A stretch of 64,000 nt of DNA, from NCBI GenBank assembly GCA_030272585.1, contig BSYQ01000014.1:1984001-2048000 (forward strand). Reading direction: 5' to 3'. A model generated the notes under the pieces. The model had not been told where the DNA came from. It searched no databases and saw nothing but the letters and a program-made list of their open reading frames with translations. A program made the translations under genes and the position numbers. This DNA is from Bryopsis sp. KO-2023. Its lineage: Eukaryota > Chlorophyta > Ulvophyceae > Bryopsidales > Bryopsidaceae. Below, piece after piece: positions 1,410 through 53,776 of the stretch. Each line of letters starts with the position of its first letter. Position 1 is the first letter of the stretch.

Positions 1410-2072
1410 TCAACGCTCGTGCTTCGACTCAAGGGATGCAAACAATCGCGGACCAAGTATCTGAGGTGGTTGAACGGAGGAGGGTATTTATTTGTGGCCA
1501 CGACAGGAAGACCCACTGCCACCTGTCCATCGTGTGGAGTTGTCGCTCTCAATCCCCGCATCATTACTTCTTTTGTGCCTATGTGTTCCATCACTTTGGA
1601 GTGATCAGAAAATCCTAGGTATAATTTCGATCATGCTTTGGTTGAGTCAAACAAACAAATCATGTAACCATGTTTGTTTGTTTATTTGGCTGAGTCAGAG
1701 CTTTCAAATGAAATCGGAGCTTTCTGGAAGTGTCAAAATTTGCATTTGCTACCAGTCAAATATTTGATAGTTGTCCTTGGGATTGGGATTGGGATTGAGA
1801 TTGAGATTGAGATTTTCCGGTGGTTAATTACCTCAAAAATGAATGAGCGAAGGAGTCTTTCGAAAAGTTTCTATTGCGCTTGTTTCAGAATCCCTGACTC
1901 TTTTTTTCTTGATGTTAAATGAGCCTGGGTGTTGTATTGTGGTGTTGATTGGAAGACGTTTCTTGTAAGCTTCCTATTTGGTCTTGAAGACTTTGGTTTC
2001 ACACTCTTATTGAAAGAGAATAATAGCTCAGAATTTAACATATCAGAACAAACAATCAAACAAAAAGCACCC
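1410..2072. other. Non-coding stretch with a hexamer repeat
   Basis: No gene is supported here. A short GGGATT/GAGATT hexamer tract lies at about 1778-1814. The stretch ends at the target site ACCC of the LTR retrotransposon. Confidence 0.5.
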
Positions 2073-2243
2073 TGTTAATATCGCCAGCCTTAGCCTTGTT
2101 TCGAACAAGTGTTTTTCTTACAGAAAATTGTTCACGGACACAATCCTACTTTCCAAACTTATACTTCAAGATCTCTCCTCTCATTAACTAATTTAGTTCA
2201 CATCTACAGAAATTAAGGCTACTCTGAAATCAAATTCCCAACA
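2073..2243 (-). repeat. 3' LTR of the Ty3/gypsy element
   Basis: A 171-bp direct repeat identical by eye to 7706-7876. It lies downstream of the polyprotein stop. Confidence 0.92.
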
Positions 2244-2333
2244 CGCTTCACCGCGCAGAAAAACTCCGATATAACGAAATTTCGCAAAGAGAAGTAAATT
2301 AGTAAAGAAAAAGAATAGAAGATCCCTCAAAGC

Positions 2334-5300
2334 CTAGTAATAATGCTTCATCTGGTTGGCATGAAGTATTAAGTAAGGCTTGCGTCCCTTTTTGACTTCC
2401 CTCGTGACTGGAGCTACCTTGAACCTTCTGCCAGAAATGTGCGTAATGATTCTGTAAGGTCCCTTCCAAATCGGTTCCAGTTTTCCCAATTCGCGCGACA
2501 GACGATCGTAATCCAGGATTAGAACTTCTTCCCCCACATAGTGATAATGCCGATTGGGAGCTGTTCGTCGTGCGTTGATCTGTTCTCTCCTTTTTGCTGT
2601 CCGATCCAAAGCTTCAGCCCATGCATCCTCTCCCGCTCGCCACAACGCAGCAGGTGAGTATTCGGTAGTGTTGTGAATCATGTTGTTGATCTGGTTCAAG
2701 GCTCTGCTGATGTGATCACTCCATTCTCCTCCCATGTCGAATTGCAGAACTCTCAGACGATCCAGTAACGTTCGGTTAAAACGTTCTATCAATCCGTTTG
2801 CTCTGTGGTGGTGCGCAGGAACGCGATCTAACCGTATTCCACGGCGGTGGGCCCAATTGGAGACCGCGGAAGACTGAAAGTAGCTGGCACCGTCGGTGAG
2901 AATCGTGTTTGGAGTGGGAGCTGCCTTGAGCCAGATGTCCAGAGTAGCGAGGATGGATTGGGTTGACGACTTCTTCAGCGGAACAGCGAATCCAAGGCGA
3001 GTAAGTCCGTCGACCAAACACATTATGTATCTGTGTCCTTTCGCATCGACAGGTAGTGGACCTATCAAGTCAATGTTAAGGCTCTCGCCGGGCCGCTTTG
3101 GGTTCGTCGGAGAGCCTAAGGTCTCTTTTTCCCTCGGTGGTGTGAAGTGTTGGCACGTGACGCATCTTTTAACGACGTCGTGGATCTCCAACAGGCTGAC
3201 GTCCCAGCCCATTTGGTGGCACTGCCACTGGAGTTTTTTTGACTTCCAGTGTCCGTCCGAGTGAAGAGCTTCCAGTGCGGAACGGGACGGCGACACCTGG
3301 ATAGGGCTGACGTCGGGGACGTTCTCCTTCGCGAACCATCGCGACAGTTGGTCAGCCCAGGGATTGCTTTCGCCTGCCAGAAACTCCACTCGCATGCGTC
3401 CAGGGGAGGGGAAGTGTGACCAAATCCAGGCGACAAGGCGAGCGGCACGGAGGTCAGACATGAGATCTGGGCCAGGTGGGTTTCGTAATCGGTGGTAAGC
3501 ACTTTGGGAGTCAGTGTATACCACGATAGGTCTGGCTCCCACCAAAGGCATGACGTCGCGCAGGGACCAAGCAAGGCACTGGAGCTCGCCTAGGAAGCTG
3601 GATGGAGTAACTCCGGTGAGCCGTTGGGAGTTGAGTGCGACGATCCTTCCGTTTTCCGGCTGTCCCGAGAAGAGAACGTAGCCCCGCCCGGTTCCAGACC
3701 AATCGACTTGGAGGTGGAACGTGGAGGTATCTTCCCTCGTAAGTGATATGTTGTTCGCCAGAATTTTCGCCCAAGCTTCTTTCGCCAATTGATCCAGTGT
3801 TTCTCCAGGAGTGTTTGGTGCCTGTGCTTGTAGGGGCTCCACATAGGCGCTGTAGCCGGGGCACACTCCGCGTGTGACATTGAAGAGCCCTAGGACTTTC
3901 CGAAGATCGCTGGGAGAGCGTATAGGAGGTAGGTTTTTTCGCTGTTGCTCCAGGAAGTGTTTTAACGAGATGCCTTCAGGTCCCAGCGTGTAACCAAGGA
4001 ATTGGACTTCCGAGCGAGCGATTTGGGCCTTCGAGGGGTTTACGCACCACCCGACCTCGCGAAGGCGTTCCAGAACTTGGCGAAGGTGGAGGTCATGCTC
4101 TGCGCGGTTTCTTCCCCCTACTAGGATATCGTCGACGAAATTTCGGGCGGCCTTCCCTTCCAAAACGGACTTCACACGCTCATGGAACAGCCCTGGTGAT
4201 GAGCTCCACCCCTGCGGAAGACGAAGGTACCAATAGCGTCCCACGTCCGTTTCGAAGCCAAAGAGTGGGCGAAGGGAGGGACACACTTCCAATTGGAAGA
4301 AACCGTCAGAGAGGTCGAGGACAGAGAACGTCGTCCATTCCGCAGGGATGGAGTCCACCACCGAACGCACATTCAGAGATGACGAACCCCAAGGAGGAGA
4401 ATAGCCATTGAGCGTTCTGAAGTCGACTGTCTTGCGGAGTTTCCCCGATGGCTTCCTCAGGAAAAGAACTGGGGAGAAATGTGCGCGCTGTCCAGGTAAG
4501 AGATGCTCCACCACTCCTTTTCGCTCCAGGTTGCCCATAAACTCAGCGATTTCGTGTTTCTCGATGCCAGTAGGATGGTATCGTCTTCCTGTCGACGACA
4601 AAGGTATTCTGTGCATAGGTACTCTCCAGTCTATTTCCCTGTGACAGATTCGAAGTCGTTTACTCCACTTGTTTTTCGGAATGTGCTGTAGGTCGTCAGT
4701 GAAGACGTCAGGAAAGCTTGATATCCAGTGCTGGAGTAGGGAGGCATCCTCAGGGGGGTTTATTCCATTTGTTTGCTCTGCTTTGTCCAGTTTGTTTTTC
4801 CCGGTTCCCGACTTTTCCTTTGTTTGTCCACAGGTGTCCTTATCCATTCGCAAGGGGAGCTGAGCAGCTGCTGGAGTTGGAGATGGAACTGCAGTCCCAT
4901 TCAGGTTTGTTTTCAAATGCTCTTCGTGTTCTCCCAGAAATGTTGCAGTTGCATGTGGATGGTGTACAACTGGAGCTGCAGAAAGATCTTCTTGTGTTTC
5001 CCTTCCAGGACTGACCCGAGAGCTTTCAGGAAGGATTCCCAGAGAAAGCTGTAAACTGCCATCTGTGAGAGGAGTGGTTGGAGCTGAAGGAGGAGAGAGC
5101 ATTCCCTGGTAGGTGAATTCTGATGATCCAGAACATTTTTTCGAAAATCCAGGAGCTGCAGAAGGTCCTGCGTTCTTTCCAGCATTTAATCCAGTGTTTT
5201 CAGAAGAAATCCCCAGGGAAGGCTGTAAACTGCCCTCCAAGTGGGGAGTCGTTGGGGCTGAAGGAGGAGAGGGAACCCCCTGGAAGGTGAATTCCGATAA

Positions 5301-7706
5301 TCCATAAGTTCCTTGCAACTCCCCAACTGATTCTCCTGAAACAGTTCCTACTGTATCCTGATGTGATTCCATTTCGTATGCCAGAACATGAACCATGGGC
5401 TGATATGTGGTAATGTCCTCTTTTGTCCTTATTGCTCCATATATGTCCTTTGCTGTGTCAGGTGTGCAATCCAAGATTGCAGGAAGAGTTGGTGTAACTG
5501 CAGAACACCCTGTATCCAGGCATGACCCAAGCGATCGTGTATAAGAGGAGGAGCCAAGAACTGAAGTAGGATTCACCTCGGAAGGAGCTGATGAACTGTG
5601 GGTAAGTGGTAGTGCTGAAACTGTCCCATAATCCAATGCACTTTTACATCCACCTTCCCCTTCGAAACATTCTTTTTCCAAATCCGAAATAGGCACATCC
5701 CACTCGTTTTGTTTCGTATCCAGTGGAGTGGGGTGATCCAACTGATGCTCAATCATAGACAAACTTCCCTCACTGATCCATGTCACCCTTGTATCTTTCT
5801 TCAGAAGTACTGCAGCTAAGCAAAGTTTGCCCGTCAGCATACGACTCTCTTGGCTCATATTATGTACTTGGACTCTGACTGCTCCATTACCTCCCAATGT
5901 GATCGTGTGAAATACATTTGTGATTTGCCCTATAGGTATCACCCCGCAGATTCCCTCTCCTGTGATGCGGAAAGGAGGAATGATCGTCTTTGACATCCGA
6001 GGTCCCAGGACAACCGAACCACCCAAAGGTATGTATATGCGCTCTTGATAAATGCGAAGTCGTTTGGCTTGATTCCGTTTGTTTGCTGCCGTGAACACAG
6101 TGACCAGTGGCTGGGATCGGAAAAGGTTGGATGTGTCGCTTGTAGGTTCCAGTTCCGACGGCGTAACTCCCTTCTCCGTGGACTCCTGTTCCGACTTCAT
6201 AACCTCCTTGGCCTTGACTCCTGCTGCCTTGATCTCCCGTGCCGACTGCATGACCTCCGTGGCCTTGACTCCTGCTGCTGTCATTTCCTGTTCCACCCTC
6301 GTGATCCCGTCGTCCAATACCTGCGCTGGAACTTCCTGTTCTGCTGTCTTCGATACCAACGCCAGCTCTAAGGGTGGAGTGTCCAGTCTGTTTTCGATCG
6401 TAGAAGGGTTGACAGAAATAGAAGTAGAGGGATCAGAGTCAGGAGGGGTAGTCGAAACACTAGGTCCCGTGGCCTCCACTGCGTCCTGGCCAGTCGTCTG
6501 CGAGTTGTCTCCGTCTCCGTCTCCGTCTCCGTCTCCGTCTCCATCATAATCTTCAGCACACAGAGTAACAGTCGACACCTCCCCTCCATTTCCAACGTGT
6601 TCAGCGTGAGGAGGTTCCACAAGGGGTGGGTAAAGTGCCTGAAGAGGCAGGTCGGCTTCAGCGATGGGTGGTGCACTTGCCACTGGGTGGGTGACCACAT
6701 GACATGCCACTGTTTTTCCGTCCACACTCCGTAAGCACTCCTTTAAACAGTCCACGCTCAATTGCCTATGGCTCAGGAAAGGCATACCCAGTATTATCTG
6801 ACGAGCGGAGGCAGCAACCACAAAGGACTCTCTACTCTCCCAAGGTCCCACTGTTATCGAAATGGGTATCACACCAACGACTTTTTCCTTCGCTCCATTG
6901 AACCCAGACAGCTCAGAAAGGGTAGACGGCTGGATTCCAAGTCCGTTTCGTTTAGCGTAAGCCAACGGTAAAACGTTTACAGTAGATCCAGAGTCGACCA
7001 ACACGTCGTGGAGCTTGGGGTCCTCCCCCAACCTTATCCTTACTCTAAGCTGCTTGTAAGTAATCGGTCCGCTGTTCCCACTGGCTGAGTTGGGGTTCGA
7101 TTCCTCTTGGGAACTCATCTCTGCAGACGAAACCGGTGGTGTAGTCGTGTTGAGGAGAGTGCAAAGTCGACGCACCAGCTCCATGTCTTCCTGACTTAAC
7201 CCACGTCGGTTTCCTCCTTTAGCTCGAAAGTCTCTTCCTCCATGCTTATGTTCCGCCGCCCACACGCTTGGTGAGCGTTTGTTTCGCCAGTCCGACAAGG
7301 TCCTCCACAGCACTTTTGCGACTTTCAACGAGTAAGAAGCTAACATGCTGGTGGTAAGTCCCAGCCCCAGCAAGCCCAAGTCTGCCGATCGATGTTTCAG
7401 GCGAGCCGTCAATAACCGTATCTTTTCTACTGTCTGTAGAAATTCCAGTGAGAACAACGGAGGTTCCTCCTTTCGTGTTTTTCGTCTCCTTCGTTCCCAA
7501 ACTAAGCTCTGGGCCGCTTCGAGTATAAGTGAAACTTTCTCCTTATCTTCTTTTGTCTCGTAACCCAGGCTCTCGTACTCCTCAACCAATTTCTGAATGG
7601 CCGTGACTTTTTCAGAAGTGGCGGGCGTTTTCCACACGAGTGGATACGCCGAGGCTTGGCATAAGGCGGATATCAGGAGTAGTGATAACACAAGCTCCGA
7701 AACCAT
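2334..7706 (-). CDS. Retrotransposon polyprotein (PR-RT-RNaseH-IN), 1790 aa
   Basis: One uninterrupted frame encodes the replication proteins of the element. The start is hydrophobic and signal-like (MVSELVLSLLLISAL); no CCHC Gag knuckle is visible. An aspartic protease motif DSGST lies at about residue 237. A long variable linker follows, with a GDGDGD run encoded by a GTCTCC microsatellite (about 6508-6542) and two diverged copies of a Ser/Pro-rich repeat (SEFTxQGxxSPPSAPTTP). Reverse transcriptase has the FVDD catalytic box at about residue 1190. RNase H begins near DWSG (about 1334). Integrase follows, with an HHCC zinc finger and the catalytic D, D, E in NIDLIGP, TDGASYF and NGLIERF (about 1544, 1603 and 1637). 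The order is that of Ty3/gypsy elements. Plus-strand frames inside are shadows. Protease, RT and IN boxes all look intact, so it is probably competent or only recently silenced. Confidence 0.93.
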   Translation of the reverse strand: MVSELVLSLLLISALCQASAYPLVWKTPATSEKVTAIQKLVEEYESLGYETKEDKEKVSLILEAAQSLVWERRRRKTRKEEPPLFSLEFLQTVEKIRLLTARLKHRSADLGLLGLGLTTSMLASYSLKVAKVLWRTLSDWRNKRSPSVWAAEHKHGGRDFRAKGGNRRGLSQEDMELVRRLCTLLNTTTPPVSSAEMSSQEESNPNSASGNSGPITYKQLRVRIRLGEDPKLHDVLVDSGSTVNVLPLAYAKRNGLGIQPSTLSELSGFNGAKEKVVGVIPISITVGPWESRESFVVAASARQIILGMPFLSHRQLSVDCLKECLRSVDGKTVACHVVTHPVASAPPIAEADLPLQALYPPLVEPPHAEHVGNGGEVSTVTLCAEDYDGDGDGDGDGDGDNSQTTGQDAVEATGPSVSTTPPDSDPSTSISVNPSTIENRLDTPPLELALVSKTAEQEVPAQVLDDGITRVEQEMTAAGVKATEVMQSAREIKAAGVKAKEVMKSEQESTEKGVTPSELEPTSDTSNLFRSQPLVTVFTAANKRNQAKRLRIYQERIYIPLGGSVVLGPRMSKTIIPPFRITGEGICGVIPIGQITNVFHTITLGGNGAVRVQVHNMSQESRMLTGKLCLAAVLLKKDTRVTWISEGSLSMIEHQLDHPTPLDTKQNEWDVPISDLEKECFEGEGGCKSALDYGTVSALPLTHSSSAPSEVNPTSVLGSSSYTRSLGSCLDTGCSAVTPTLPAILDCTPDTAKDIYGAIRTKEDITTYQPMVHVLAYEMESHQDTVGTVSGESVGELQGTYGLSEFTFQGVPSPPSAPTTPHLEGSLQPSLGISSENTGLNAGKNAGPSAAPGFSKKCSGSSEFTYQGMLSPPSAPTTPLTDGSLQLSLGILPESSRVSPGRETQEDLSAAPVVHHPHATATFLGEHEEHLKTNLNGTAVPSPTPAAAQLPLRMDKDTCGQTKEKSGTGKNKLDKAEQTNGINPPEDASLLQHWISSFPDVFTDDLQHIPKNKWSKRLRICHREIDWRVPMHRIPLSSTGRRYHPTGIEKHEIAEFMGNLERKGVVEHLLPGQRAHFSPVLFLRKPSGKLRKTVDFRTLNGYSPPWGSSSLNVRSVVDSIPAEWTTFSVLDLSDGFFQLEVCPSLRPLFGFETDVGRYWYLRLPQGWSSSPGLFHERVKSVLEGKAARNFVDDILVGGRNRAEHDLHLRQVLERLREVGWCVNPSKAQIARSEVQFLGYTLGPEGISLKHFLEQQRKNLPPIRSPSDLRKVLGLFNVTRGVCPGYSAYVEPLQAQAPNTPGETLDQLAKEAWAKILANNISLTREDTSTFHLQVDWSGTGRGYVLFSGQPENGRIVALNSQRLTGVTPSSFLGELQCLAWSLRDVMPLVGARPIVVYTDSQSAYHRLRNPPGPDLMSDLRAARLVAWIWSHFPSPGRMRVEFLAGESNPWADQLSRWFAKENVPDVSPIQVSPSRSALEALHSDGHWKSKKLQWQCHQMGWDVSLLEIHDVVKRCVTCQHFTPPREKETLGSPTNPKRPGESLNIDLIGPLPVDAKGHRYIMCLVDGLTRLGFAVPLKKSSTQSILATLDIWLKAAPTPNTILTDGASYFQSSAVSNWAHRRGIRLDRVPAHHHRANGLIERFNRTLLDRLRVLQFDMGGEWSDHISRALNQINNMIHNTTEYSPAALWRAGEDAWAEALDRTAKRREQINARRTAPNRHYHYVGEEVLILDYDRLSRELGKLEPIWKGPYRIITHISGRRFKVAPVTREVKKGRKPYLILHANQMKHYY

Positions 7707-7876
7707 GTTAATATCGCCAGCCTTAGCCTTGTTTCGAACAAGTGTTTTTCTTACAGAAAATTGTTCACGGACACAATCCTACTTTCCAAACTTATACTTC
7801 AAGATCTCTCCTCTCATTAACTAATTTAGTTCACATCTACAGAAATTAAGGCTACTCTGAAATCAAATTCCCAACA
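7706..7876 (-). repeat. 5' LTR of the Ty3/gypsy element
   Basis: A 171-bp direct repeat. Its last base on the minus strand is the A of the polyprotein ATG; the TG comes from the adjoining primer-binding site. Confidence 0.92.
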
Positions 7877-12409: not shown

Positions 12410-12416
12410 ATATCAT

Positions 12417-12609
12417 GGGTGCCCGATCACAGCGGTAGTGGAAGACCGCAACCACGCTGCGCAGGGCAGATGCAAGCATCTGTTTACCCCCGCGCCCCAT
12501 GAAAAATCGGCTTAATCGTTATAAGGGATCAAATAGATCCCATATCAGCGATTAAACTGATAAGAACAGATACTACACTTGATCTTAGCCAAAAGGCCGA
12601 GAAAGGTAT
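12417..12609 (-). ncRNA. U2 spliceosomal snRNA
   Basis: The minus strand from 12609 reads ATACCTTTCTCGGCC then TTTTGGCTAAGATCAAG, the near-invariant U2 5' domain. The branch-point-recognition GTAGTA is at 12577-12572. The stem IIa region (GGGATCTATTTGATCCC) follows, then an Sm-type GATTTTTC (12508-12501). Stem-loop III has CAGATG facing CATCTG. Stem-loop IV has the loop TTGCGGTCTT, comparable to the U2B''-binding loop of other U2 RNAs. The 3' end is placed at GGGCACCC, giving about 193 nt, close to the 188 nt of human U2. U2 base-pairs with the intron branch point and with U6 in the spliceosome. I see no clear upstream snRNA promoter element. Confidence 0.95.
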
Positions 12610-28700: not shown

Positions 28701-30834
28701 CATATCACCCCTCCTCCGTGTGCAATATTTTCCTCAAAAACTGAATCCTCGATGTCGACTTCGACTCTGCCCGATCCTGTGTCTTGCAACAGAAAAATTC
28801 CGCCCCCTTGAGCTACGGCTTTGTTTTCGTTCATTGTGCAGTTTTCAATTCTCATTTTTAATGTGGGGCCTTTCGCCCATATTGCTCCGCCACCATCATC
28901 GTCTGCATCCGAATTCAAAGTCCCAGCTGTGTTGTTGAGGAATTCGGTGTTCGTTATGGCCAATGTACTGGCTGGTGCCTTTCCCTGAAATGGAATTTTA
29001 TTCTTTTCAGTCTGACAAAGTAATTTTGTAAAAATAGAAAGCAGAAAATGAATCAACACAAGTGTCTGACGAAGGAAAGCAAAAACTGCAACTTTTCTTT
29101 AAAAAAGATGTAACTGCCAGAGTAGCTGAGCACTCCCGTTTTCACTGATTCTTTGTATCTTGATCTCCACCTTTCACTCTTCTTTAAGCCGCCAGTTTTT
29201 CTGTAAATCCTCAAAAAGAAAAACGAATACATATAAATAAATATCAGCCCCCTCCCATGCAACCCCCTTCAAAACGCACTCACCAAAATGTGCAGGGCCC
29301 CTCCTTTGCTCGCCGCATGATTATTCAGAAACCTCGATCCAGTCACTGTGATAAATGCCGGTGCCTTCTGAAACAGGGCTGCCCCCTTTCCTCCCCTTGC
29401 TTTCCCAAAATAGACCGACAGATTCTCCTCAAACACGCAATCCTTCACTTTCACCTCCATGCCAGGTGAATTCAAAAACACCCCCCCGCCACGTGTCCCC
29501 ACGTTTCTAGAAAACGCAACTTTGGTCAATGACAGGGATTCGGCGGATTTGATGTACATGCTGGCCGATCCATTCAGATTTTTGTTTTCGACAAAATCCA
29601 CCCCAGTGATTTCCAAGGATGCGGTTTCGGTGCCCTTGTCTTTTCCAATGTCGACCACGACTGCCGATGTGAATTTAGACTCAGTCGCACAGTCAGACAC
29701 AACGAAGTTCTCCAGCTCCACTCCTGTAGAGCTGTAATCATGCAAATCCACACAAGGAACTCCATCAGGATTTGAACTCAGGTTGACAAAGTGATGACTC
29801 AAGATGCCACTGAGTAAACAGTGGTTTCAAGCAAAACACTTCCAACCTCAATTCTTGGTTAGAATCATTGTCCGGGAGTGTCAGAATTTCACCATACCTG
29901 ATTTCAAGCAAGGGTTTTCCTACACCAGGACAAGTAAACACTGGCCGCTGCTTTCCCTGCCCCCCTGATGTCAATTTGATGGCATCTTTTATCACCACTG
30001 TGGTGGTGGGTTTGATAATCAGTCCTGGTTCGATTGCAAGTTTCCCTCGGTGCGGAACACAGTCCACAAGCTTCTGAAAGTCGTTTTTGATTTCATCTAA
30101 TACTCCCTGGGTGACTGAAAAATCACTCCCCTCAAAAATAGCATCACAGTTCTGGGCACCTGGTTCATTTTCACCACATGGTTTACTCAGAATCACATCT
30201 CAGTTTCCAAACTGCAGAAAATCGCCATCAAGCAATGTCTGCCAGACATCCAGAAAACTTTATTAATGTCGGACTCAGCTGGATCCATCCTGCCATAATC
30301 CACCCCGGCGAGAGCTTAGTTCTCTCAGACTTTATCAAAGCGTGGGGCGATTCTGCGTAAGGCCCGCGCGTACGACATGGCGGCGCGCGCGTGCGTTTTG
30401 AGTGAGGAACGGTGACTTTGGGTGAGAAACGCCCGATCGCAGATTTGAGTTTTGCCTGCTGAGAAAAGATTCTATGACAGACATAGCGGGAATCGTCCAT
30501 GCTGCGGGGTGGCGCCGCCCAGAACTCCCTCACTGGAGATTCTCGTATTGAATGACCATGAGAACTTTTCTGGCTCGTATCAAAGTGACCAACAATGTTC
30601 GACTAGGAAAACCCATAAACAAGATAGAATGCTTTCCCGCGATTCAGCAGCGCACGTGCGTTTCCTGTCCATCTCTCTTCACCAATGCTTCTTGTCAGGA
30701 CACATCGATCAGTAGAATAAACGAAACTCACCGGCAATATCCGGGCGTAATATCAAAAAGAACGCAGCGAAGAATAGACCTATGCAGCCCTGCGATGAAA
30801 TTCTTCCAAACTCAGCTGTCCGCTGCGACACCAT
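19776..30834 (-). CDS. Giant Pmp-repeat beta-helix protein with TRP-like membrane domain, 14 exons, 1955 aa
   Basis: Exons: 30834-30732, 30198-29898, 29809-29284, 28984-28694, 28241-27870, 27513-27283, 26726-26463, 26197-26044, 24563-24460, 24293-23123, 23045-22132, 21624-21355, 21257-21167, 20851-19776. All phases agree and the total is 1956 codons. Exon 1 is a signal peptide (ISSQGCIGLFFAAFFLIL). Residues about 130-1270 carry many copies of the paired motifs GGA(I/V) and FxxN, the signature of chlamydial Pmp-type right-handed beta-helix repeats. The strongest are in exon 10, with two near-duplicate blocks (GIFSGNxAVDGGAVFVSESLF). A Cys-rich GCC2/GCC3-like segment (CRQCETNSFSF, CKPCPTSTTC) precedes TM helices. 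A C-terminal TRP-like multi-pass domain follows (YHNDHVYWEIVVMARKALLG, then LHSQPYR). This architecture is known from large algal and stramenopile surface proteins. A surface adhesion or sensor role is likely but unproven. Internal plus-strand frames are shadows. Confidence 0.88.
24597..26043. other. Largest Pmp/TRP-gene intron (part)
   Basis: The intron between exons 8 and 9 of the Pmp/TRP gene runs 26043-24564 and is much longer than its neighbours. It is A/T-rich with T/G homopolymer blocks. I find no nested gene. Confidence 0.5.
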
Positions 30835-32291
30835 TTCGTCAAAGTGTTCTTTTCGTTTCAGCTTTATCTTTCACAGCTCAACGGTTGTCTTCCACTTTTG
30901 AGGAGCTGTTCTCTATAGTGACGGCTCCTCTACCGAGCACGACGTCAGTAAAATTTCGCTTCTGTGTTTCTTTTTTTGGATTTCCACTACACAGCACACT
31001 CTCATATCAGGTTTACTAAGCTTTTCGGTTGTGTTGCGATTTTCGTCCTCCTACGAAGTTTTGGCGTTAAAAGAGTGTTTCACCACCCGATGCACTGTCT
31101 CACTGTTTCTGATTTTGCCTCTTGATCACTTTTTGCTCCAGAAGAGGTTGCCAATGAAAGGGTTTTTTGGGATGAATCGAACACGTGATCCAGGAGTGTT
31201 TGGACATGACAGTCATGAAGGGCTGGAGGATCGTGCAAAGTGGAACTATAATAATAAACTTACTGGACTCGATCCAGTTGGGTGGAACACACAAGAGACA
31301 CAGTTGAGCTTTGCCCTGAAGGGACTTACAAGAACTATCTTATCGTTTCTTCCACAACATTTTATCCTTCCCCTTTCCAAGTACTGCCTGTCCTCCAGAA
31401 AACCACTGTACTTTGCCAATACACCAAATCTTCCTGTAGTGCCTGTGACCCCTCACGAAAGCTCACGTGATTCACCCTCTACCTCTTCCTCCCCTAACCT
31501 TTTCTACAGGAGCCTCGTAAATTGATGCAACACATCTTGGATTATTGGCCCGTCGTTTTTTTCAGGATTCTTGCCTATTCTTCCCCCTTTCGGAGAAAGC
31601 TCCTCTTGCTCCGAAAGGGGGTGGCTTTCAAGCAAACAAACATTGGGATCGAAACAACAGCGAAACTCTGTTCCTGGGAGGGCGGGCATACCCCCTGCGG
31701 GACCAGTGAGCATCCAGTTCATTGCCACTGTTGGGTTTCTGAGATTCTATGAACGGCAAAAGGTTTGAGTGAATGTGTCAATGAGTCATGCTGTAAATTG
31801 TAGTCATAGCTTAGTAAGGGATCCAGAAAGGATAAGGAAGGAGTTGAGAAATTGGAAATTGACTCTTGTAAAAGAGTCAGTTCCCCCTCTCACAGACACC
31901 ACCTTATCCTTTCCGATCCACCGATCCTCTTGTAAAGAGTGTGGTTGCAACTTTGAGACTCGAGAGTTCAACACGTCATAAGTTGATGTTGGGAATTTGC
32001 GACATCACACTTTGAAGTGCGTAGAGTGAGACTGTGTGTCTCGGATTGTGTAACGTTCTCTTCAACCTTGAAGTTCGCACGGGGACACAAGTGTAACAAA
32101 GCCCAGTAAACCTGGTGCCAAGGTAAGAGTGAGCTGCGTGGTGGAGGTCCCAAAAAACACAGAAGCAGAGTCCTTGAAATTCGAGATTGATCGAGGAGTC
32201 GACTTCACAGTGACGAACTTGTGTAACAACGGAATACCGATATCGGAGTTCGAAAAAAGAAGTGCAACGAAACGGTGTGCAGCGGAGAACA
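30835..32291. promoter_or_regulatory. Divergent promoter region of the Pmp-repeat gene pair
   Basis: It separates the start codons of two head-to-head paralogues, so both promoters must lie here. A 13-bp-stem hairpin (31583-31595 with 31609-31621, ccccctttcggag facing ctccgaaaggggg) is the only clear structure. The open frames here show no coding features. Confidence 0.5.
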
Positions 32292-35200
32292 ATGCATGAA
32301 AATACGAAAAAGCGAGGAAGATTTTCGTCGCACGTCTCCAAATTTCTGCTCGTTGCTGTCTTATTCGCGGCACAAAGCTTGGGCGCCGCCGGTGAGATGA
32401 ATGCGGAGCAGGGAGGTCTCCCTGTTGTTCGACACGTTTCCCCTTTGGGCATTCGGGCGAGATGGTTTCGGGTGGCGGCACCCGTGTATCTGTCATAGAA
32501 TAATTTCTCGCCTCACTCCTGGCCCTATCGCCATGTCGGACTCGTGGGCTTTACTCAGAACCGCTCACTGAACGTAGAAATTCTGGGAGGGGGGGATGAT
32601 TCTGGCAAGACACATCTAGCGGAACAGCCGTCGTTTTCGTTTTTCAGCCTGGACGTTAAAAATCCATGTGAAGTTGATGGTGATTTTTCTGCACCAATTG
32701 ATCCTATGCAAACTGAGATGTGATTCTGAGTAAACCATGTGGTGAAAATGAACCAGGTGCAAGGAAATGTGATGCTATTTTTGAGGGGAGTGATTTTTCA
32801 GTCACCCAAGGCGTATTAGATGAAATCAAGGACGACTTTCAGAAGCTTGTGGACTGTGTTCCGCACCGAGGGAAACTTGCAATCGAACCAGGACTGATTA
32901 TCAAACCTACCACCACAGTGGTGATAAAAGATGCCATCAAATTGACATCCGGGGGGCAGGGAAAGCAGCGACCAGTATTTACCTGTCCTGGTGTAGGAAA
33001 ACCCCTGCTTGAAATCAGGTCTGGTAAAATTCTGACACTCCCGGCCAATGATTCTAACCAAGAATGAGGTTGGAAGTGTTTTGCTTGAAACCACTGTTTA
33101 CTCAGTGGCATGTTGAGTCATCACTTTGTCAACCTGAGTTCAAATCCTGAGGGAGTCCCTTGTGTGGATTTGTTTGATTCCAGCTCTACAGGAGTGGAGC
33201 TGGAGAACTTCATTGTGTCTAACTGTGTGACTGAGTCAAAAGTCACATCGGCAGTCGTGGTCGACATTGAAAAAGACGAGGGCACCGAAACCGCATCCTT
33301 GGAAATCACTGGGGTGGATTTCGTCGAAAACAAAAACGTGAATGGATCGGCCAGCATGTACATTAAATCCGCCGAATCCCTGTCATTGACCAATGTCGCT
33401 TTTTATAGAAATGTGGGGGCACATGGTGGGGGGGTGTTTTTGGATTCACCCGCCGTAAAGGTGAAAGTTAGGGATTCCGTGTTTGAGGAGAATCGGTCAG
33501 TCCATTTTGACAAATTGATGGAGGGCAGGGGGGCAGCCCTTTTTCAAAACATGTCGGCATTTGTCACAGTAACTGGATCCAGATTTTCGAGCAATTACGC
33601 CGAAAGTGCAGGAGGAGCCATGTACATTTTGGTAAGCATTTGCAAGGATGGCTGCAGAGGTTTGATCATTTCCACAATTTTTTGACTTCAAATTAAAAAA
33701 ATTCAAATTGATTTTTCTTCAGGGAGAGCCGCCGGCTAGTACATTGGCCATAACAAACACCGAATTTTCCAACAACAGAGCAGGGAGTTTGAAACCGGAC
33801 GTCGACAGAGATGGCGGGGCGATCTGGGCAAAAGGTCCCACATTTGAATTGAATGTGAAAAATTGTACCTTGGTGAAAAACAAAGCCACAGGCCAAGGGG
33901 GGGGGATTTTTTTGCTGACATCCATACGACCGGGCGAAATCAAAACAGAAATCAAAGACACAATTTTCGAAAAAAATGTTGCGTTTATCGGAGGGGCGAT
34001 CTGGGCACAGGTAATCATTTCACTTATACGTTTATACAAGTTCATGATTTTTTCTTCTCCCTTCTTAATTTCGTTTTTTTTCACCCCAATCCCCTCCCCC
34101 CTTCTCTTCCCTGAATTGACAGCGGCAAGCAGCTTTTCTTTTTGTTGGTTTGCTTACTCCGCTCGCCTGAATTTCAAGGGATAGGGTTATGTAAAAAAAA
34201 TTCATATTCTGGCTTCTTCCCGATTATTGCATTTTAACAAGTTAAAAAAAATGGTCATTTAAAGAAACAGATTTTCCTCCAGAGTCCTCCCTCGGACCAA
34301 CAATCGTATATACACACGATGAATGTTTTATTTTATTTCAATGTTTATTTTGACATTTTTTGTCCCTTGTCTTTGGGGTGGGTGGGTCGAAAGGCATCCA
34401 TTCAATGGAAACTGGGCCTCTCGATTTCCAACAGCAAGTTCTTGAGCAATGAAGCCCTGCTGCAATTCGTTGAGCCAGGGAGCATTTTCGAGAACGCCAC
34501 TCAGTTTTCTTTCATCGATCCCGGCCAGGGGGGCGCCCTCGCATGCATTGGAATCTCCATCGACCTCAATTCCAAAGGAAATCTGTACGAAAAAAACACA
34601 GCCGTCGGCCTGGGGGGCGTGGATCAAAGGGGCCCCCGGGGGGGAGCGATCTTCATAGCGGATGCAGAAAACGTCACCATGACAGACGATGTTTTTAGGG
34701 GAAATTCAGCCATACATCTCGACACATTAGGGAAGGAGGCGTTCGGGGGTGCCATTTACCTGACGGTGAGTAACCCTTATCCATTCCAGGCAAAACCATG
34801 ACTGTTTCACCACTTTCTGACCCGTTTTTCTTAAATTTTGTCATGTTCAGCATATCGAATCAAACCTTGCGCACCAGAGAAAAGATCCAGGTCGAAAGGC
34901 AAAAAGAAAAGCCATCAGAGGAGTCTATGTTTGTGTTTTTTTCCAGGCAGTAGGAATTGAAGCAGCCAGGGTTACGGGCACCCCACCAGGAAGCCAATGT
35001 GGACTCCAGTGCGATGGAAATGTTCAAGCGCAAACCCTTGGAATATCGAATCTTAGGGCCGGCTGTGGAATTCTGAACAGCAACAGCCCGAGGCTGTGTG
35101 TGTTGATGAACGCAACCGAATGTGAAGGGGTCATTCCTAAAGAAAACTTTATCGTTTTCAAAGGAAGGCCAGAAATCGGAGCTAGGTGTAAGGTGTGTGA

Positions 35201-48204: not shown

Positions 48205-48621
48205 TTTCTTTTGAGAGAAGAAACTCGAAGGAAAGAAAATACCCCACCCAAAATAAAAAATCCCACCCAAACAATCACAGACAAGAAAAGAAAACCCTCC
48301 CATTTTTTCTTTTTTTTTTTGATTTTTTCAAATAATATTAATACAAAAATATTCTCCCCTTTTTTTTGATAATACTCTTTTTTTTTGTATAACACTTTTT
48401 TTTTCTCTCGATCATAATATTTTTCAAAATACTTCTTTTTCTTTTTTTTCATATTGATATTTTTTTGATGGGTCTTTTTTTGATATTCTTTTCCTGGTGG
48501 CACTTTCTTCACCATTGAAAGTCTGTTTTAGTGAAGTTTAAGGTAAGATCCAGCCCATGCTGGAAGGTTTGAGAAATATGTTGTGATGGGGGATCCCTTG
48601 GTTGTGGTGGTGTCATCGCTC
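48205..48621. other. A/T-rich spacer
   Basis: Homopolymer-rich, with no supportable gene. It ends at the left LTR of the integrase/SH3 element. An 11-base word tgtcatcgctc at 48611-48621 recurs just inside that LTR at 48767-48777. Confidence 0.4.
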
Positions 48622-48764
48622 AATATTTTGACGTTACATGAACGCATAACAAACAACCAGACAAACTGCCAAGAATAGAGAATTGTTTAATACCGCTGTT
48701 GATCTATCTCTCCGTCCGAGAACTTCCTAATCATTCTTGGACACCAAAGGATTTGTCGACCACA
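48622..48764 (-). repeat. 3' LTR of the integrase/SH3 element
   Basis: A 143-bp repeat identical by eye to 52417-52559. A frame on the minus strand enters it and reads CGRQILWCPRMIRKFSDGE to a stop, the same peptide as in the other copy. Confidence 0.8.
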
Positions 48765-48829
48765 ATTGTCATCGCTCCACTTCGCTTCCACGAGCAAATC
48801 TCCGAAAATAAAATAAAAAAAACTTCCCG

Positions 48830-50200
48830 CTATTCCGATATTTTTTGTAAATCCTCCAAACCCATGCGTCGTTTTTCTCTTCCCAACACAATCGTTGCTA
48901 ATCTCCATTCACTATCTATTTCATGAATTTGCCATACCGTTTTCGAGGCTAATGGATCTAAACTCTTCCTTCTCAACAAACGAAATCGAACAAAATCCCC
49001 CACTACAAAATCAAAATTGCTCGAGCGAGAATGTTTTTTTTCAAAAGCCCTTTGTCTTTTTGCCTGGACTAATGATATTTGCCTCTTTGCTTCACTCCAA
49101 AGATCCTCTAAAGGTAATTCACTTCTTTGTAAGTAAAACTCCCCACTTACTGCAATCATAGCCTTCATTCCATAAGCCAATTCATAGGGGGAAAGTCCTG
49201 TGGTAGTGTGAGGAGCACAATTATGACTCACCACAATTCTCCCTAAAACTTTTGGCCATTGCTTGCTGATATGATTCCTCTCAAGAAGAACACATCTAAT
49301 CCTTTTCTTAACATCCCCAATTGTAGCTTCAACATTACCATTGCTTTGCGGATGCAATGGTCTACTGTGGACATGCCTAATGCCTTGTTCCACCAACAAT
49401 ATTGAAAATCCACCATCGAATTCCCCACCATTGTCGGATCTAATATATTGAGGTTTTGGGTATTTCCCCAAAATCTCCTGTTGAAACCATGTTCTAACCG
49501 TCTCTGAAGTTTTATCTGGTATTATAGTAACCACAAGAAACTTTGAAAAAAGATCCAATGCCACAGCAATATATTTATACCCACATTCACTAATTGGTAA
49601 TTGGGCTAAATCCACAGCCCACCCAACAAAAGGTTGGTCTGGACCCTTGTCCTGAATAAGGCTTTTTGGGGTATTCCATTTAGACCTATTGCAACTGCAA
49701 GCTTCGCATTCGTTCAAAACCTCTTTCACTGACCCAGTCAAATCTGCCCAATAATATCTCTGCCTAAGAAACCGAAGGCATTTGTCCCTGAGGTGCCCCA
49801 GACCAAGGTGCACATTTTTAACAAGTGACACTCTTGTTTCTGGCCTTGGCACAATTCTTGAAAGAAAGCCTTCATCTTTTTTCCACAAAATCGGACCTCG
49901 AAATTCGTAAGTCTTTTTCTTAGCAAGGATTCTATTCCTTTCCGCATGCGAACCACTTAACCTTTCACCATATTGCAAGTATCTAAGACTTGCCGCGTCT
50001 TTCCATATATCGTACACCATTTTTTTATCCAAACAAAAGAACCACTCTTGTTCCAACACGAATAGGGTAGTCGCCACCAATTTCGTCACACCCGCCACAG
50101 TGGTTTTGCCACCACACTTGGAGAATAGATGGATAAAACGGAGGAGATATATATATAGAAGGTAGAGAATAAAACCCCGCAATATAAGCATATGAAGCAT
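48830..50200 (-). CDS. Retroelement integrase (HHCC + DDE), about 456 aa
   Basis: The first in-frame ATG is at about 50200. The N-terminal 30 residues are very hydrophobic. A pre-integrase segment resembles gypsy elements (LRYLQYGERL...GPILWKKDEG). The HHCC zinc finger is VHLGLGHLRD...CEACSC. The catalytic core has D in VGWAVDLAQLP, D in IRSDNGGEF and E in SNGNVEATIG, with normal spacing, followed by the LSPYELAYG motif common in Ty3/gypsy integrases. A C-terminal SH3-like DNA-binding fold is likely (VVGDFVRFRLLRR). The frame starts only 32 bases after the SH3 ORF stop. It encodes no RT or protease. It should insert element cDNA into the genome if cDNA is made in trans. Confidence 0.85.
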   Translation of the reverse strand: MLHMLILRGFILYLLYIYLLRFIHLFSKCGGKTTVAGVTKLVATTLFVLEQEWFFCLDKKMVYDIWKDAASLRYLQYGERLSGSHAERNRILAKKKTYEFRGPILWKKDEGFLSRIVPRPETRVSLVKNVHLGLGHLRDKCLRFLRQRYYWADLTGSVKEVLNECEACSCNRSKWNTPKSLIQDKGPDQPFVGWAVDLAQLPISECGYKYIAVALDLFSKFLVVTIIPDKTSETVRTWFQQEILGKYPKPQYIRSDNGGEFDGGFSILLVEQGIRHVHSRPLHPQSNGNVEATIGDVKKRIRCVLLERNHISKQWPKVLGRIVVSHNCAPHTTTGLSPYELAYGMKAMIAVSGEFYLQRSELPLEDLWSEAKRQISLVQAKRQRAFEKKHSRSSNFDFVVGDFVRFRLLRRKSLDPLASKTVWQIHEIDSEWRLATIVLGREKRRMGLEDLQKISE

Positions 50201-50232
50201 ATAAGCATTTGATATAATCAAATCACTTTTCG

Positions 50233-51609
50233 TTAAGATCTAAAAGGAAATCTTGTGCGAAAAAAAGAATCGTGCAAATTCCAATTAAAATGCCGGTAAT
50301 AGGGCCACCAGCAAAATTCTGGCCAAGGAGATTGCATCCAAGAAATCAATGGCAATCTACCCTGTACGTGTCCTGGAATTTGCCCGTCAGGAAATTTCTG
50401 ATCATCTCTAAAATGTGTAGGAGAACAGCTTACATTTCTTTGTCGATTTCGTTGTCGTCTCCTGTTTCTCCTCCTCACTCTTGATTCAAATTGATCAGTT
50501 CGCATCATTTGCTCGTTCTCCTTTTTCTTGCAATCAGATTCCATCCCGCTTTTTGATCCTTGGCTTGGTAATTTCTCCTTTTGTACAAATGCATCTCTTG
50601 GATGTTCTTCTTTGGGTTTGAGATGCTCTTCAATAACATCTGAAGACAACTTGAAAGGTCTTCTGCTTCTTTTCCAGCCACCATCCGAATGTGCGTCCCG
50701 TGCTCGCTTCAATTCCATATCCAAGTTTTTTAAAGAATCAGCCCTCAATCTGAGAATCTCTTTCTCTAAAGCTTGAATTTTTTCCACATCTTTTCCCCAC
50801 AATCTGAAAATCTTCTCAAGGTTTTCGCCCCTATTTTCCACAATCTTCATGCTTCGTTGTACATCTGAGAAAAAAAACCTTTTCTTTTCCTGATCGGCCT
50901 TTATTTGACAATGCCATTGTACAGGAGAAAAATTCACCATTTCTGGTTGCCTATCATATCTCCCTTTCCTACTTTCACACTGAAAATTCATTGGATGATG
51001 TCTTTGGATGATTTTAGGGATTTCAAGAATCGAAGAGCACAACAAATTGCAATCCCTAATCTCATATTTTTGATCTCTCATTTCTCCTTCCGTTTGACAT
51101 CCAATAGAAAACTGGACATCATTCAAAAAAGAATCATCCACTGATTCCATGTAAGAAAAAGGTATCAAACCTTCTACACCACTTTGTAATTTCACCAAGA
51201 CTTGCCCATTATTTTTCTCCTCCACAACTCGTACAATCTCTCCTTTTCCCACAGAAATCTCCCCGGAAAAGCCACCAGAAAACTCAGTTAAAATTCTGCC
51301 ATATTCAATTTTGTGTGAGAAAACAACTGGATCAGAACTACAAAGATTCTGATGCAATTTTTCAGGTTTAGAAAAGCTTCCTTGAAAAACCTGAGGTGGG
51401 GATGCCATAACCTTTTTTTTCTCCTCAATTTTCTGAAGATAGGACGAAGGAATCAAACCAATTTTATCATCCCTTTTGGATTGTACTGAAGTCCAACCCT
51501 GATCACACTCTTCCAAGATGATAACAATCTCATTTTTCTGAACTGAAAGCTCCTCTGCAAATTCTGCCCCAAAGTCGTGCAAAACTCTTCCGTGTTCTTT
51601 TTTCTCCAT
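50233..51609 (-). CDS. Tandem SH3-domain protein carried by an LTR element, 458 aa
   Basis: The ATG at 51609 is followed directly by an SH3 domain, residues about 5-60: GRVLHDFGAEFAEELSVQKN, a DQGWTSV tryptophan motif and GLIPSSYLQ. A second SH3, about 100-155, has GRILTEFSGGF...GEISVGKGEIVRVVEE and GLIPFSYMES; its binding-surface Trp is replaced (GQVLV). A coiled-coil-like helix lies at about 260-310 (VEKIQALEKEILRLRADSLK), and an Arg-rich patch near 385-405 (RVRRRNRRRQRNRQRN) could bind nucleic acid. SH3 domains bind Pro-rich peptides and are normally host signalling or cytoskeletal modules. In position it takes the place of Gag. It may be a captured host gene serving as a Gag substitute or a passenger; that is inference. 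Confidence 0.75.
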   Translation of the reverse strand: MEKKEHGRVLHDFGAEFAEELSVQKNEIVIILEECDQGWTSVQSKRDDKIGLIPSSYLQKIEEKKKVMASPPQVFQGSFSKPEKLHQNLCSSDPVVFSHKIEYGRILTEFSGGFSGEISVGKGEIVRVVEEKNNGQVLVKLQSGVEGLIPFSYMESVDDSFLNDVQFSIGCQTEGEMRDQKYEIRDCNLLCSSILEIPKIIQRHHPMNFQCESRKGRYDRQPEMVNFSPVQWHCQIKADQEKKRFFFSDVQRSMKIVENRGENLEKIFRLWGKDVEKIQALEKEILRLRADSLKNLDMELKRARDAHSDGGWKRSRRPFKLSSDVIEEHLKPKEEHPRDAFVQKEKLPSQGSKSGMESDCKKKENEQMMRTDQFESRVRRRNRRRQRNRQRNVSCSPTHFRDDQKFPDGQIPGHVQGRLPLISWMQSPWPEFCWWPYYRHFNWNLHDSFFRTRFPFRS

Positions 51610-52416
51610 TGTTTTATAGTCCCAGAATTTTGTTTAACTTTGTTTTTTATATAGAAAATGTTGTCCACAGACCCGTTTTCCTAAAACTATCAATTTTAGG
51701 AAAGAAAGGGAAACACCTGAAGATTTCTTTTAGAACCCAGAAGTTCTCCAATATCTTTCACTGTTTTTTTTTTTTTAACTTCCGCACAACCTAAAATAAA
51801 AAGACTCAACCTTTCGAAGAAAAGGGAGTTCACACAAGGAAAAAACCAACCCAAACCAGAAACTTAGAGCTCAAGAAAATTTTGCAGCTCTACAAAATAA
51901 AAACACCACCCAGAAAAAACAAAATCAAGAAAAAATCTCAATTCTGCCAAGGGAAAATAAAGACCTATACAAAAATTTCCAGAAGTTGTTTTCCTACAAA
52001 AATGGATCCAGTTGAATCTACTACCTTCCACAGAAGGGAGAAAGCAATAAAATCCTTCAAAATATCAAGAAAAAAGAAAATAAAACCCCTCCTGTGATTT
52101 CCAAATTAAAAAAACCCGTTTCAGATCGAGTCAAATGATCACTCTTACGATCACAGTAAGTATCAATCTTGGTAGATCGATATCTCCTTCGAAACTCGTC
52201 GAATGTCTCTGCTTCGAAGTCGACAGGCTTCCTTGGGTCGAGAGGTTAGGATTAGACTCCAAGATCACTCGAAACGGATGAGAATTGGGATAAAAATCGA
52301 CCAAAACAAAAAAGGGCTGGGACGTATTCGTCTCCACGCCTCGCGTCCGTGCGTAAAGGAGGCAGTCGCCTTCCACTCACTCGCTACAGGAACGTTTGAG
52401 CTGTGCTCCGAAACCA
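51610..52416 (-). other. 5' leader of the integrase/SH3 element
   Basis: About 800 bases between the 5' LTR and the SH3 ORF, A/T-rich with no supportable ORF. It begins with the primer-binding-like TGGTTTCGGAGC on the minus strand. Confidence 0.55.
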
Positions 52417-52559
52417 AATATTTTGACGTTACATGAACGCATAACAAACAACCAGACAAACTGCCAAGAATAGAGAATTGTTTAATACCGCTGTTGATCT
52501 ATCTCTCCGTCCGAGAACTTCCTAATCATTCTTGGACACCAAAGGATTTGTCGACCACA
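52417..52559 (-). repeat. 5' LTR of the integrase/SH3 element
   Basis: A 143-bp repeat directly followed on the minus strand by the primer-binding-like TGGTTTCGGAGC. Confidence 0.8.
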
Positions 52560-53776
52560 GTGGCAGTTGTCTTGCTGATGGAACGCTTCATTTCATAGAC
52601 AAAACAGGGATTGAGAAAAAACACGCGTACACCAACCCACAATTGTGACTTGTCTTTGTGGTGGTGTTTTCTTTATAACAAAACAAAACCCGTCAACAAA
52701 AGCAGATTAGCACCCAGGAAAAAGCTCCACACACCTGTTTCGCAAGAGTGCATTTCACTCCCCCTCCGTCCACTCTCTCGATCCTTCTGGATCCCAGGAG
52801 CCCCTTCCAACTGTGATCTGCTTTGGTTTCCAGCGTCGGCGAGGGTTCCAGATCGAACCCGTGCTCGCTGTGCTGGGCACTCCCCCGGTGCGGCTCCGGA
52901 ACAAACAGCTGCAGGCACAAGATGCCTCCAAGTGAAACGATTCCCAAATTTTGGTTTCTGCCCCACTCCCACATCCATCCAACCCAAACATGACTCCTCA
53001 CCTGCTGAGTACATGTCGAACTCACTGACGGGCGAAATTGCCCTGGGGTAGAAGATATTCAATATCCTTTCAGCTGGGAGGTACGTCGGCCAGGAACACG
53101 ACAGGTAGGCCTCACTCTGGTCAGGATTCATTGTCTTCATTTGTGCTTTAAAGCACAACTTTGTCACTGCATGGATGGCCCAGCGACCCAAGTCGGCTTT
53201 GGCATCCAGCACTTGAGTTTGTTTGAGTTTTGGATCGAACTTGGAGGCGTCGTGCTTGCTGTGCTGGGCACTGTCCTTGGCCAGGTGCAAACAAAGGACG
53301 CCTGCAAGTGCAAAGATCTCCAAATTTGGGTTTCTCAATCACTCGCACACACATCCAACCCAAACATAAGCCTCCGCACCTGCTGAGTACATGCTAAGGG
53401 GCGAAATGGCCCCCGGGCAGAGACTGTTCGGTATCCTTTTGGCTCGGAGGTATGCCGGCCAGGAACTCGATAAATACGTCTCACTCTGGTCAGGCTTCAG
53501 GGTCGTTGTTTTTGCTGTTGTCGCCGCATGCAAGAACCAGCGACCCAAATCCTGTGCAGATGAGAAACGTGAGGAAGAGATACAAGCCAACCCAGCCACT
53601 TTGTGATCCTGCGTTGACGTTGTCGGTTTGCAAACGCGTGGAAATAGAGGCCTCAAGCGCGAGCCACTTTGACTACATGAAACACTGGTGCAAGAACCGC
53701 AAATACCTTGTAGTCGTCGAACTGGAGCTCCATTGCTGGTACTTGGTTCGTCGAAAATCGCAGGTACTGACGGCAA
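52482..53776 (-). CDS. Gene with duplicated exons abutting the LTR element; function unknown
   Basis: Exons 53776?-53600, 53551-53380, 53301-53002, 52925-52735 and possibly 52574-52482 follow one frame with GT-AG junctions. The second half of the third exon repeats the second exon (DLGRW..HA, then PDQSE.YLS.SWP.YL, then GAISP/RAISP and MYSA). The fourth exon repeats the start of the third (LCLHL/LCLQL, SAQHSKH/SAQHSEH). The unit has thus been duplicated through phase-1 introns. The final exon runs into the 5' LTR and takes its last 26 codons and the stop from it. The 5' end is unresolved: no ATG with a signal or transit peptide is found, so the model is partial. I do not recognise the family. 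Confidence 0.5.

Follow-up and report, generated by a model that had tools for sequence, protein, structure and literature searches.

How can a retroelement that encodes an integrase but no reverse transcriptase (RT) spread through a genome? The question is raised by a long terminal repeat (LTR) element on the minus strand of a 64,000-nucleotide window of the Bryopsis sp. KO-2023 genome (contig BSYQ01000014.1, positions 1,984,001 to 2,048,000), which an initial annotation had placed at 48622-52559 and described as carrying identical LTRs, a protein with two SH3 domains and an intact integrase, with no protease, RT or RNase H in its interior. These features all hold: the terminal direct repeats (48622-48764 and 52417-52559) are 143 nt each and 100% identical, open reading frame (ORF) 1 matches Pfam SH3_1 in two stretches (E 1.2e-15), ORF2 matches Integrase_H2C2 (2e-8) and rve (1.5e-11), both above the curated cut-offs, and tblastn with two RT-RNase H, one Gag-protease (Gag-PR) and one gypsy PR-RT query gave no match to the element at E<=1e-3, although integrase queries do match it in the same comparison. 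The boundary at 52559 stands as well, whereas the one at 48622 falls 11 bp short of the true 3' end at 48611, so that the inserted element measures 3,949 bp. Together with its copies, the anatomy of its ends and a reciprocal set of integrase-less elements, these data make it reasonably probable that we are dealing with an LTR-type retroelement that would provide integrase and ORF1 protein in cis, borrow RT in trans and integrate by way of joined, that is circular or concatenated, complementary DNA (cDNA).

The integrase probably starts at the methionine at 50020, since the upstream part of the window frame differs from that of two other copies (C10 and C2) and is not conserved; this start would yield a 396-amino-acid (aa) protein with an HHCC motif and a D137-D196-E231 triad, whose best relative of solved structure by sequence is the integrase of prototype foamy virus (PFV; E 1.1e-18). 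Searches with an integrase alignment returned at least 79 loci at 23-37% identity in prokaryote genomes, probably insertion-sequence transposases, and eight distant matches (24-36%) in viral_contigs, a non-eukaryotic collection in which absence says little, as it does for the RT of the R1 family described below, which had no matches there.

The genome searched was the 91-Mb assembly of 28 contigs, in which the searches score the best candidates (for the integrase, the best 92 of 1,425) and copy counts are lower bounds. The 143-bp repeat has 10 near-full matches and one 39-bp fragment, corresponding to five elements: the window element (C14) and those designated C10, C2, C6 and C19, each flanked by a 4-bp target-site duplication (TSD). 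Five such duplications at different sites rule out segmental duplication or chance repeats and, with the identical or near-identical repeats indicating recent insertion, bear out the recent mobility suggested at the outset. The ORF1 sequences of C2, C10 and C6 are 98% identical to that of the window element, and C19 shares the repeat and integrase, with only a distant ORF1. We considered whether the 20.4-kb C6 relative, whose integrase region contains stop codons, could be a longer sibling or ancestor that retains RT; its additional 15.6 kb is a nested insertion in the leader, which resumes with a 9-nt overlap, and includes a gypsy element with 798-bp repeats and a TSD of its own, so that this candidate is excluded. 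At least six further loci of 3.6-3.8 kb follow the same RT-less plan (Table 1) and represent five families besides that of the window element, since I_C6b and I_C3 share both repeat and integrase. The integrase of I_C6b is 55% identical to that of the window element and the other four aligned are 25-30% identical; none of the six RT-less families has lost the primer-binding-site (PBS) motif or the polypurine tract. Comparison of C14 with C19 shows few nonsynonymous changes in the integrase (dN 0.027) relative to synonymous ones (dS 0.141), and the resulting dN/dS of 0.19 indicates constraint on the integrase within the RT-less lineage.

The ends of these elements do not follow the usual LTR plan. 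The inserted DNA has the order A1-interior-B1-nn-A2-B2, where A1 and A2 are the terminal repeats, nn is a 2-nt spacer, and B2, found after A2 in each copy and followed by the TSD, duplicates the 7-11 nt that precede the spacer and A2. In all 13 copies with both ends read, A2 stops at the A1/PBS boundary, at most one base off, and gives way to B2, which in turn starts at GTG^G of the polypurine motif or no more than one base away; the repeat end at this joint is unchanged in 10 of the 13, and the remaining three (I_C2, I_C3 and R1_C4) have a one-base difference exactly there. In 14 of the 15 copies examined, B2 is immediately followed by a TSD of 4-6 bp (12 of those 13, and both of two more, which derive from eight 5' ends aimed at by expected length, six being misplaced and not counted). 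Its length is 4 bp in I_C2:776 and throughout the window family and its closest relatives (seven copies), 5 bp in I_C7, I_C2:628 and both copies of R1, and 6 bp in both copies of R2, another integrase-less family. In every family with several copies read, nn is identical across copies and is thus not host flank. Two control gypsy elements, one in the window (2069-7876, minus strand; a 1,814-aa frame with protease, RT, RNase H and integrase, and 175-bp repeats 99% identical) and the one nested on C6, have tracts that adjoin TG, lack B2 and show GGGT and ACTGG as their respective duplications.

The right end of an LTR-element cDNA is set by the PBS and its left end by the polypurine tract. Since the tract of these elements lies 12 nt upstream of TG, a linear cDNA should read B-nn-A...B-nn-A, neither end of which matches the inserted element. 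Joining both cDNA ends, in contrast, would abut A2 and B-nn-A1, and a staggered cut at CA-nn-TG would then release exactly A1...B1-nn-A2-B2, with loss of nn; B2, which linear cDNA would leave out, thus points to joined cDNA. The apparent source of the integrated copies is cDNA that had been circularised or concatenated and that integrase then cut at CA-nn-TG, a putative route that is well supported by the anatomy of the ends. We propose that element RNA would be primed at the PBS used by many LTR elements of the genome (TGGTTTCGGAGC, 2,013 copies versus 11 of the reversed pattern), with RT and RNase H coming from other elements, probably RT elements without integrase or relatives that have both enzymes. 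The plus strand would be primed at the polypurine tract, some 12 nt upstream of TG, which would give cDNA ends of the form B-nn-A; these would be joined in a 2-LTR-type circle or a head-to-tail concatemer. The integrase would make a double-strand cut at the CA-nn-TG inside, losing nn and leaving two processed ends, and linear A1-interior-B1-nn-A2-B2 would be inserted with a 4-bp TSD. From sequence, then, we infer joined cDNA, its cleavage by the window-family integrase and the supply of RT in trans, the last of which is likely for the window element. An apparent tandem of two copies of an RT-plus-integrase relative on contig C3, 12,467 bp apart with a common B-nn-A and the intervening stretch partly read, fits circular or concatenated precursors.

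Integrases are reported to act on comparable substrates: that of PFV cleaves both strands of the palindrome at the 2-LTR junction and leaves 5' AT (PMC1180852), the spacer of the window family also being AT, and HIV-1 integrase cuts its own palindrome with a mostly four-base overhang (PMC1905944). The PFV junction is a simple LTR-LTR joint whose role the authors base on mutants and in vitro assays (PMC1180852), whereas the cut site proposed here lies inside the repeat, and the joint stays in the integrated copy. The end structure also bears on the old dispute over joined (2-LTR circle) DNA as an integration precursor, which becomes testable where the cDNA-end joint is apparently preserved inside integrated copies of several families.

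Another integrase ORF is present in four copies with frames of 395-404 aa (L034-L037, at C5:6514338, C8:3842660, C2:8036014 and C2:7112140, respectively). A PBS motif lies directly before the ORF in L034-L036, in which a B-like stretch and a GC spacer precede TGTGATG, and about 1 kb upstream of it in L037. In the latter, which extends from TGTGATG to CCTTTACA, a 3' repeat was not seen; it has a duplication CACG and resembles a single-repeat insertion such as a one-LTR circle would give.

The polypurine-tract motif search also led to elements of the reverse kind, which combine an aspartic protease frame and RT-RNase H with the same end architecture and carry no integrase. Three families were distinguished: R1, with two copies; R2, with 22 matches containing 527- or 566-aa frames and further partial ones; and R3, with three copies that have in-frame stops and were read only at the 3' end. 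In all 22 of those R2 matches the tract lies 24 bp after the RT-RNase H match, as judged by comparing positions by hand. When one copy each of R1 and R2 was compared by tblastn, Gag-PR and RT-RNase H queries matched and no integrase query did at E<=1e-3, the reverse of the pattern in the RT-less elements. The protease-bearing frame of R1 and R2 is taken as Gag-PR; an AlphaFold model of the R1 Gag (mean pLDDT 33.6) was not interpreted.

Some of these elements share their ends with RT-less ones. R3 and I_C7 have exactly the same B1 and nn, and the R1 repeat matches those of I_C7 (1.9e-24) and I_C2:776 (3.1e-28) in a blastn comparison, to which R3 did not belong and in which unrelated repeat pairs gave no match at E<=0.01. 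A 27-mer spanning repeat end and PBS, searched with three mismatches allowed, occurs at eight places with 0-1 mismatch and at none in the control, the places being assigned by position: in I_C7, in an internally shortened C2 copy with I_C7 ends and about 1.7 kb from PBS to tract, in both R1 and all three R3 copies, and as a relic at C6:2337998-2338024, between ORF1 and integrase of I_C6b, for which the motif search found no counterpart in the near-identical I_C3. Of the 31 matches to a relaxed pattern built on the B sequences of other families (2 in the control), four belong to the known I_C2:532 and I_C6b/I_C3 type; a further five, fetched as potential RT partners, were discarded, four being an unrelated coding repeat and one showing no element.

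These relationships raise the possibility, to which we give somewhat less than an even chance, of a segmented LTR retrotransposon system in which integrase resides on one set of elements and Gag-PR-RT-RNase H on another, each useless alone and bound to the other by matched ends, and in which every member would have a DDE integrase open its circular DNA at an internal CA-nn-TG before integration. Ends are matched for R3 and I_C7 and in part for R1; those of R2 match an RT-plus-integrase family instead, and no match to the ends of the window family was found. Were the segmented reading true, the integrated copies would be a genomic record of circle-first integration, and RT-less integrase elements kept over long divergence beside elements of the reverse kind would represent a new retroelement division of labour.

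Several observations weigh against RT supply in trans through joined cDNA, in its general or its segmented form. The assembly yielded no RT-bearing element whose ends are those of the window family: the exact B1-nn-TG of this family occurs genome-wide only in its five copies, one mismatch adds 26 matches for a total of 31 versus 29 in the control, and its repeat end plus PBS, with up to 3 mismatches, again yields only the five copies. Provision of cDNA synthesis in trans, suggested in the initial annotation, is a likely route for which a donor with these ends was not found. Global repeat identity, at 78-81% for pairs of integrase-less and RT-less elements versus 59-74% for unrelated pairs under the same scoring, is only slightly elevated and weak evidence taken alone. 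In the integrase trees the RT-less group is monophyletic in 2% and 11% of bootstrap replicates (p-AU 0.165), which neither backs nor rejects a single origin of its members. The sequence would fit a 2-LTR-type circle and a head-to-tail concatemer alike, I_C2:532 has no clear TSD at the ends read, a pattern for a transfer RNA (tRNA) with the PBS acceptor gave no genome matches, and dN/dS among closer copies (0.42-1.06) is uninformative, with too few changes. Finally, the G_L075 family encodes both RT and integrase, along with a large upstream frame taken as candidate Gag, and has the same B-nn-A and B2 end structure; the first 22 bp of its repeat, its B and its nn are common to R2. A strict two-part system is consequently not established, and the end structure may go back to the ancestor of a larger group whose members include complete, RT-less and integrase-less elements side by side.

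The same family underlies the strongest rival explanation, in which G_L075-type ancestors lost RT or integrase lineage by lineage and complete elements mobilise each of the resulting ordinary non-autonomous derivatives, with no mutual dependence. Beyond the ends that G_L075 shares with R2, this is favoured by some three dozen candidates, judged by score and frame among the best 92 of 1,425, that score like the G_L075 integrase. We nevertheless regard it as unlikely. The R2 and R3 RTs are 35-39% identical to that of R1 over most of the protein, but R1 and R2 reach only 27-29% with the G_L075 RT over 157-200 aa (29% over 200 aa for R2), and the R2 and G_L075 repeats are 69% identical as a whole, no better than unrelated pairs, which confines their likeness to the ends. 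Moreover, the RT-less integrases differ by 45-75% from that of the window element and yet retain the same 3.6-3.9 kb layout, the ends of R3 match RT-less I_C7, and ORF1 is unrecognisable as a Gag remnant.

The last point brings us to ORF1, whose AlphaFold model (mean pLDDT 42.6) comprises SH3-like strands, one long helix and disorder, of which only the SH3 domains and the helix are usable. The number of SH3 domains varies from two in C14 to one in C19 and none in C2:628, all three of which share the middle region and the basic patch; the C2:628 protein also has one RFPFL-like motif, those of C6b, C3, C7 and C2:776 have a CCHC knuckle and one to four such motifs, and that of C2:532 has none of SH3, CCHC, RFPFL-like or the other motifs looked for. 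Elements that agree at 96-100% in their repeats and integrases differ over most of the leader and ORF1; C14 and C19 have a 248-bp leader piece in common at 94%. The breakpoints lie close to the PBS and ahead of the integrase, and outside the replaced part identity is 94-100%. Such replacement is the pattern that template switching would leave and fits reverse transcription. ORF1 is, by these comparisons, a swappable cassette, and may encode an RNA-binding or particle-associated accessory protein. The proposal that the SH3 protein replaces Gag becomes doubtful, as R1 and R2 encode their own presumed Gag-PR frame, and a recent host-gene capture finds no support, the single ORF1 match in the genome outside these element families being 36% over 60 aa (E 4.7e-4).

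Could the integrase, the only enzyme encoded, instead transpose the element at the DNA level, by way of a circle in which the ends abut and without RNA, the repeats being mere relics? IS3-type copy-out elements form a DNA circle with abutted ends, which CA-nn-TG resembles. Ginger transposons are likewise described as having a gypsy-type integrase without RT, TGT ends and duplications of about 4 bp, combined, however, with long terminal inverted repeats and cut-and-paste transposition (PMC2836005). The window element has direct repeats, PBS and tract, and its repeat listing contains no long terminal inverted repeat, only two AT-rich inverted pairs away from the ends. A purely DNA-based route is made very improbable by this, by the retention of PBS and tract in six RT-less families, by a B2/A2 meeting point set by tract and primer site, by an nn that is the same across copies within families and hence not host flank, and by a cassette replacement that fits template switching. 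Scarcely credible, lastly, is an unusual supply of RT, for instance by trans-splicing or from an unlinked RT of the host. It would suit the fact that searches of the assembly, at their sensitivity, detected no donor with ends like those of the window family, but it has no positive evidence, and candidate donors with the same primer site exist.

Set beside known systems, the window element is a strong variant of Ty3/gypsy-like elements and not a member by the full definition. It shares with them an H2C2 and rve integrase, direct repeats bounded by TG and CA, an adjacent PBS motif, a polypurine tract and a short TSD, and differs in lacking Gag-PR-RT-RNase H, in the offset of the tract by about 12 nt from TG, and in an insert that ends in B2, an 11-bp internal repeat beyond the 3' repeat that is absent after the 5' repeat. 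PAT/DIRS-like elements have split direct repeats in the order A1-B1A2B2 and a tyrosine recombinase, and are not known to make a TSD; the terminal-repeat order, which implies a circular intermediate, is the same here apart from the added 2-nt spacer, whereas the window element has a DDE integrase and its kind duplications of 4-6 bp. The wheat families RLG_Cereba and RLG_Quinta are presented as an LTR pair with common ends, one dependent on the other for enzymes, in which a complete partner is paired with one that encodes Gag and an unknown domain (PMC11302176), in contrast to the placement of integrase and RT on separate elements. Bipartite florendoviruses, whose organisation is called unique among viral retroelements, distribute complementary genes over two retroelement molecules with common non-coding regions, but are pararetroviruses without integrase (PMC4241990). 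Among the open-access titles and abstracts listed, neither an integrase-only LTR family nor split direct repeats with a DDE integrase appears. The observation made in the initial annotation is right and the element more unusual than first described, both the B1-nn-A2-B2 ends and the reciprocal integrase-less elements having been missed.

Table 1. Features of the window element (window coordinates) and positions of the further RT-less loci (contig coordinates)
Feature	Position	Strand	Basis
Whole inserted element, A1-interior-B1-nn-A2-B2	48611..52559	-	Repeat and end comparison
Target-site duplication CCAC (element strand), adjoining 5' end	52560..52563	.	End comparison
Target-site duplication CCAC (element strand), adjoining 3' end	48607..48610	.	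End comparison
A1, 5' terminal repeat, starts TGTGG	52417..52559	-	Repeat listing; five elements
PBS motif TGGTTTCGGAGC, directly after A1	52405..52416	-	Genome motif search
Leader, PBS to ORF1	51610..52404	-	Copy alignment
ORF1, 458 aa: two SH3, conserved middle region, long helix, Arg-rich patch	50233..51609	-	
SH3 domain 1, residues 8-59	51433..51588	-	Pfam and AlphaFold model
SH3 domain 2, about residues 101-157	51139..51309	-	Pfam and AlphaFold model
Integrase ORF, 396 aa from conserved Met (probable start); HHCC zinc domain, D137, D196, E231	48830..50020	-	
Polypurine-tract-like motif GTGGAAGCGAAGTGG	48777..48791	-	Degenerate motif: 41 genome matches, control 4
B1, GAGCGATGACA, upstream of 3' repeat	48767..48777	-	End comparison
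nn spacer AT between B1 and A2; not in inserted ends; proposed integrase cut CA-AT-TG	48765..48766	-	
A2, 3' terminal repeat	48622..48764	-	Repeat listing
B2, copy of B1 (11 bp) at true 3' end	48611..48621	-	End comparison
RT-less locus I_C6b	C6:2335908-2339522		
RT-less locus I_C3	C3:5341728-5345314		
RT-less locus I_C7	C7:3352836-3356641		
RT-less locus I_C2:628	C2:626615-630226		
RT-less locus I_C2:532	C2:532013-535642		
RT-less locus I_C2:776	C2:774792-778399		

The overlap of PBS and B resembles a tRNA 3' end, and the 12-mer that it implies has 17 matches versus 3 in the control; B as a tRNA copy was ruled out, ARAGORN reporting none at the 17 fetched sites. Just outside the element, at window 52900-53500, lie two imperfect direct repeats of 106 and 86 nt (77-78%). 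Elsewhere in the window there is a U2 small nuclear RNA at 12414-12609, which marks the genome as eukaryotic, and two very similar frames stand on opposite strands at 29269-29826 (minus) and 33089-33685 (plus), in a region (29269-33685) whose frames resemble, by eye, repeat-rich surface proteins.

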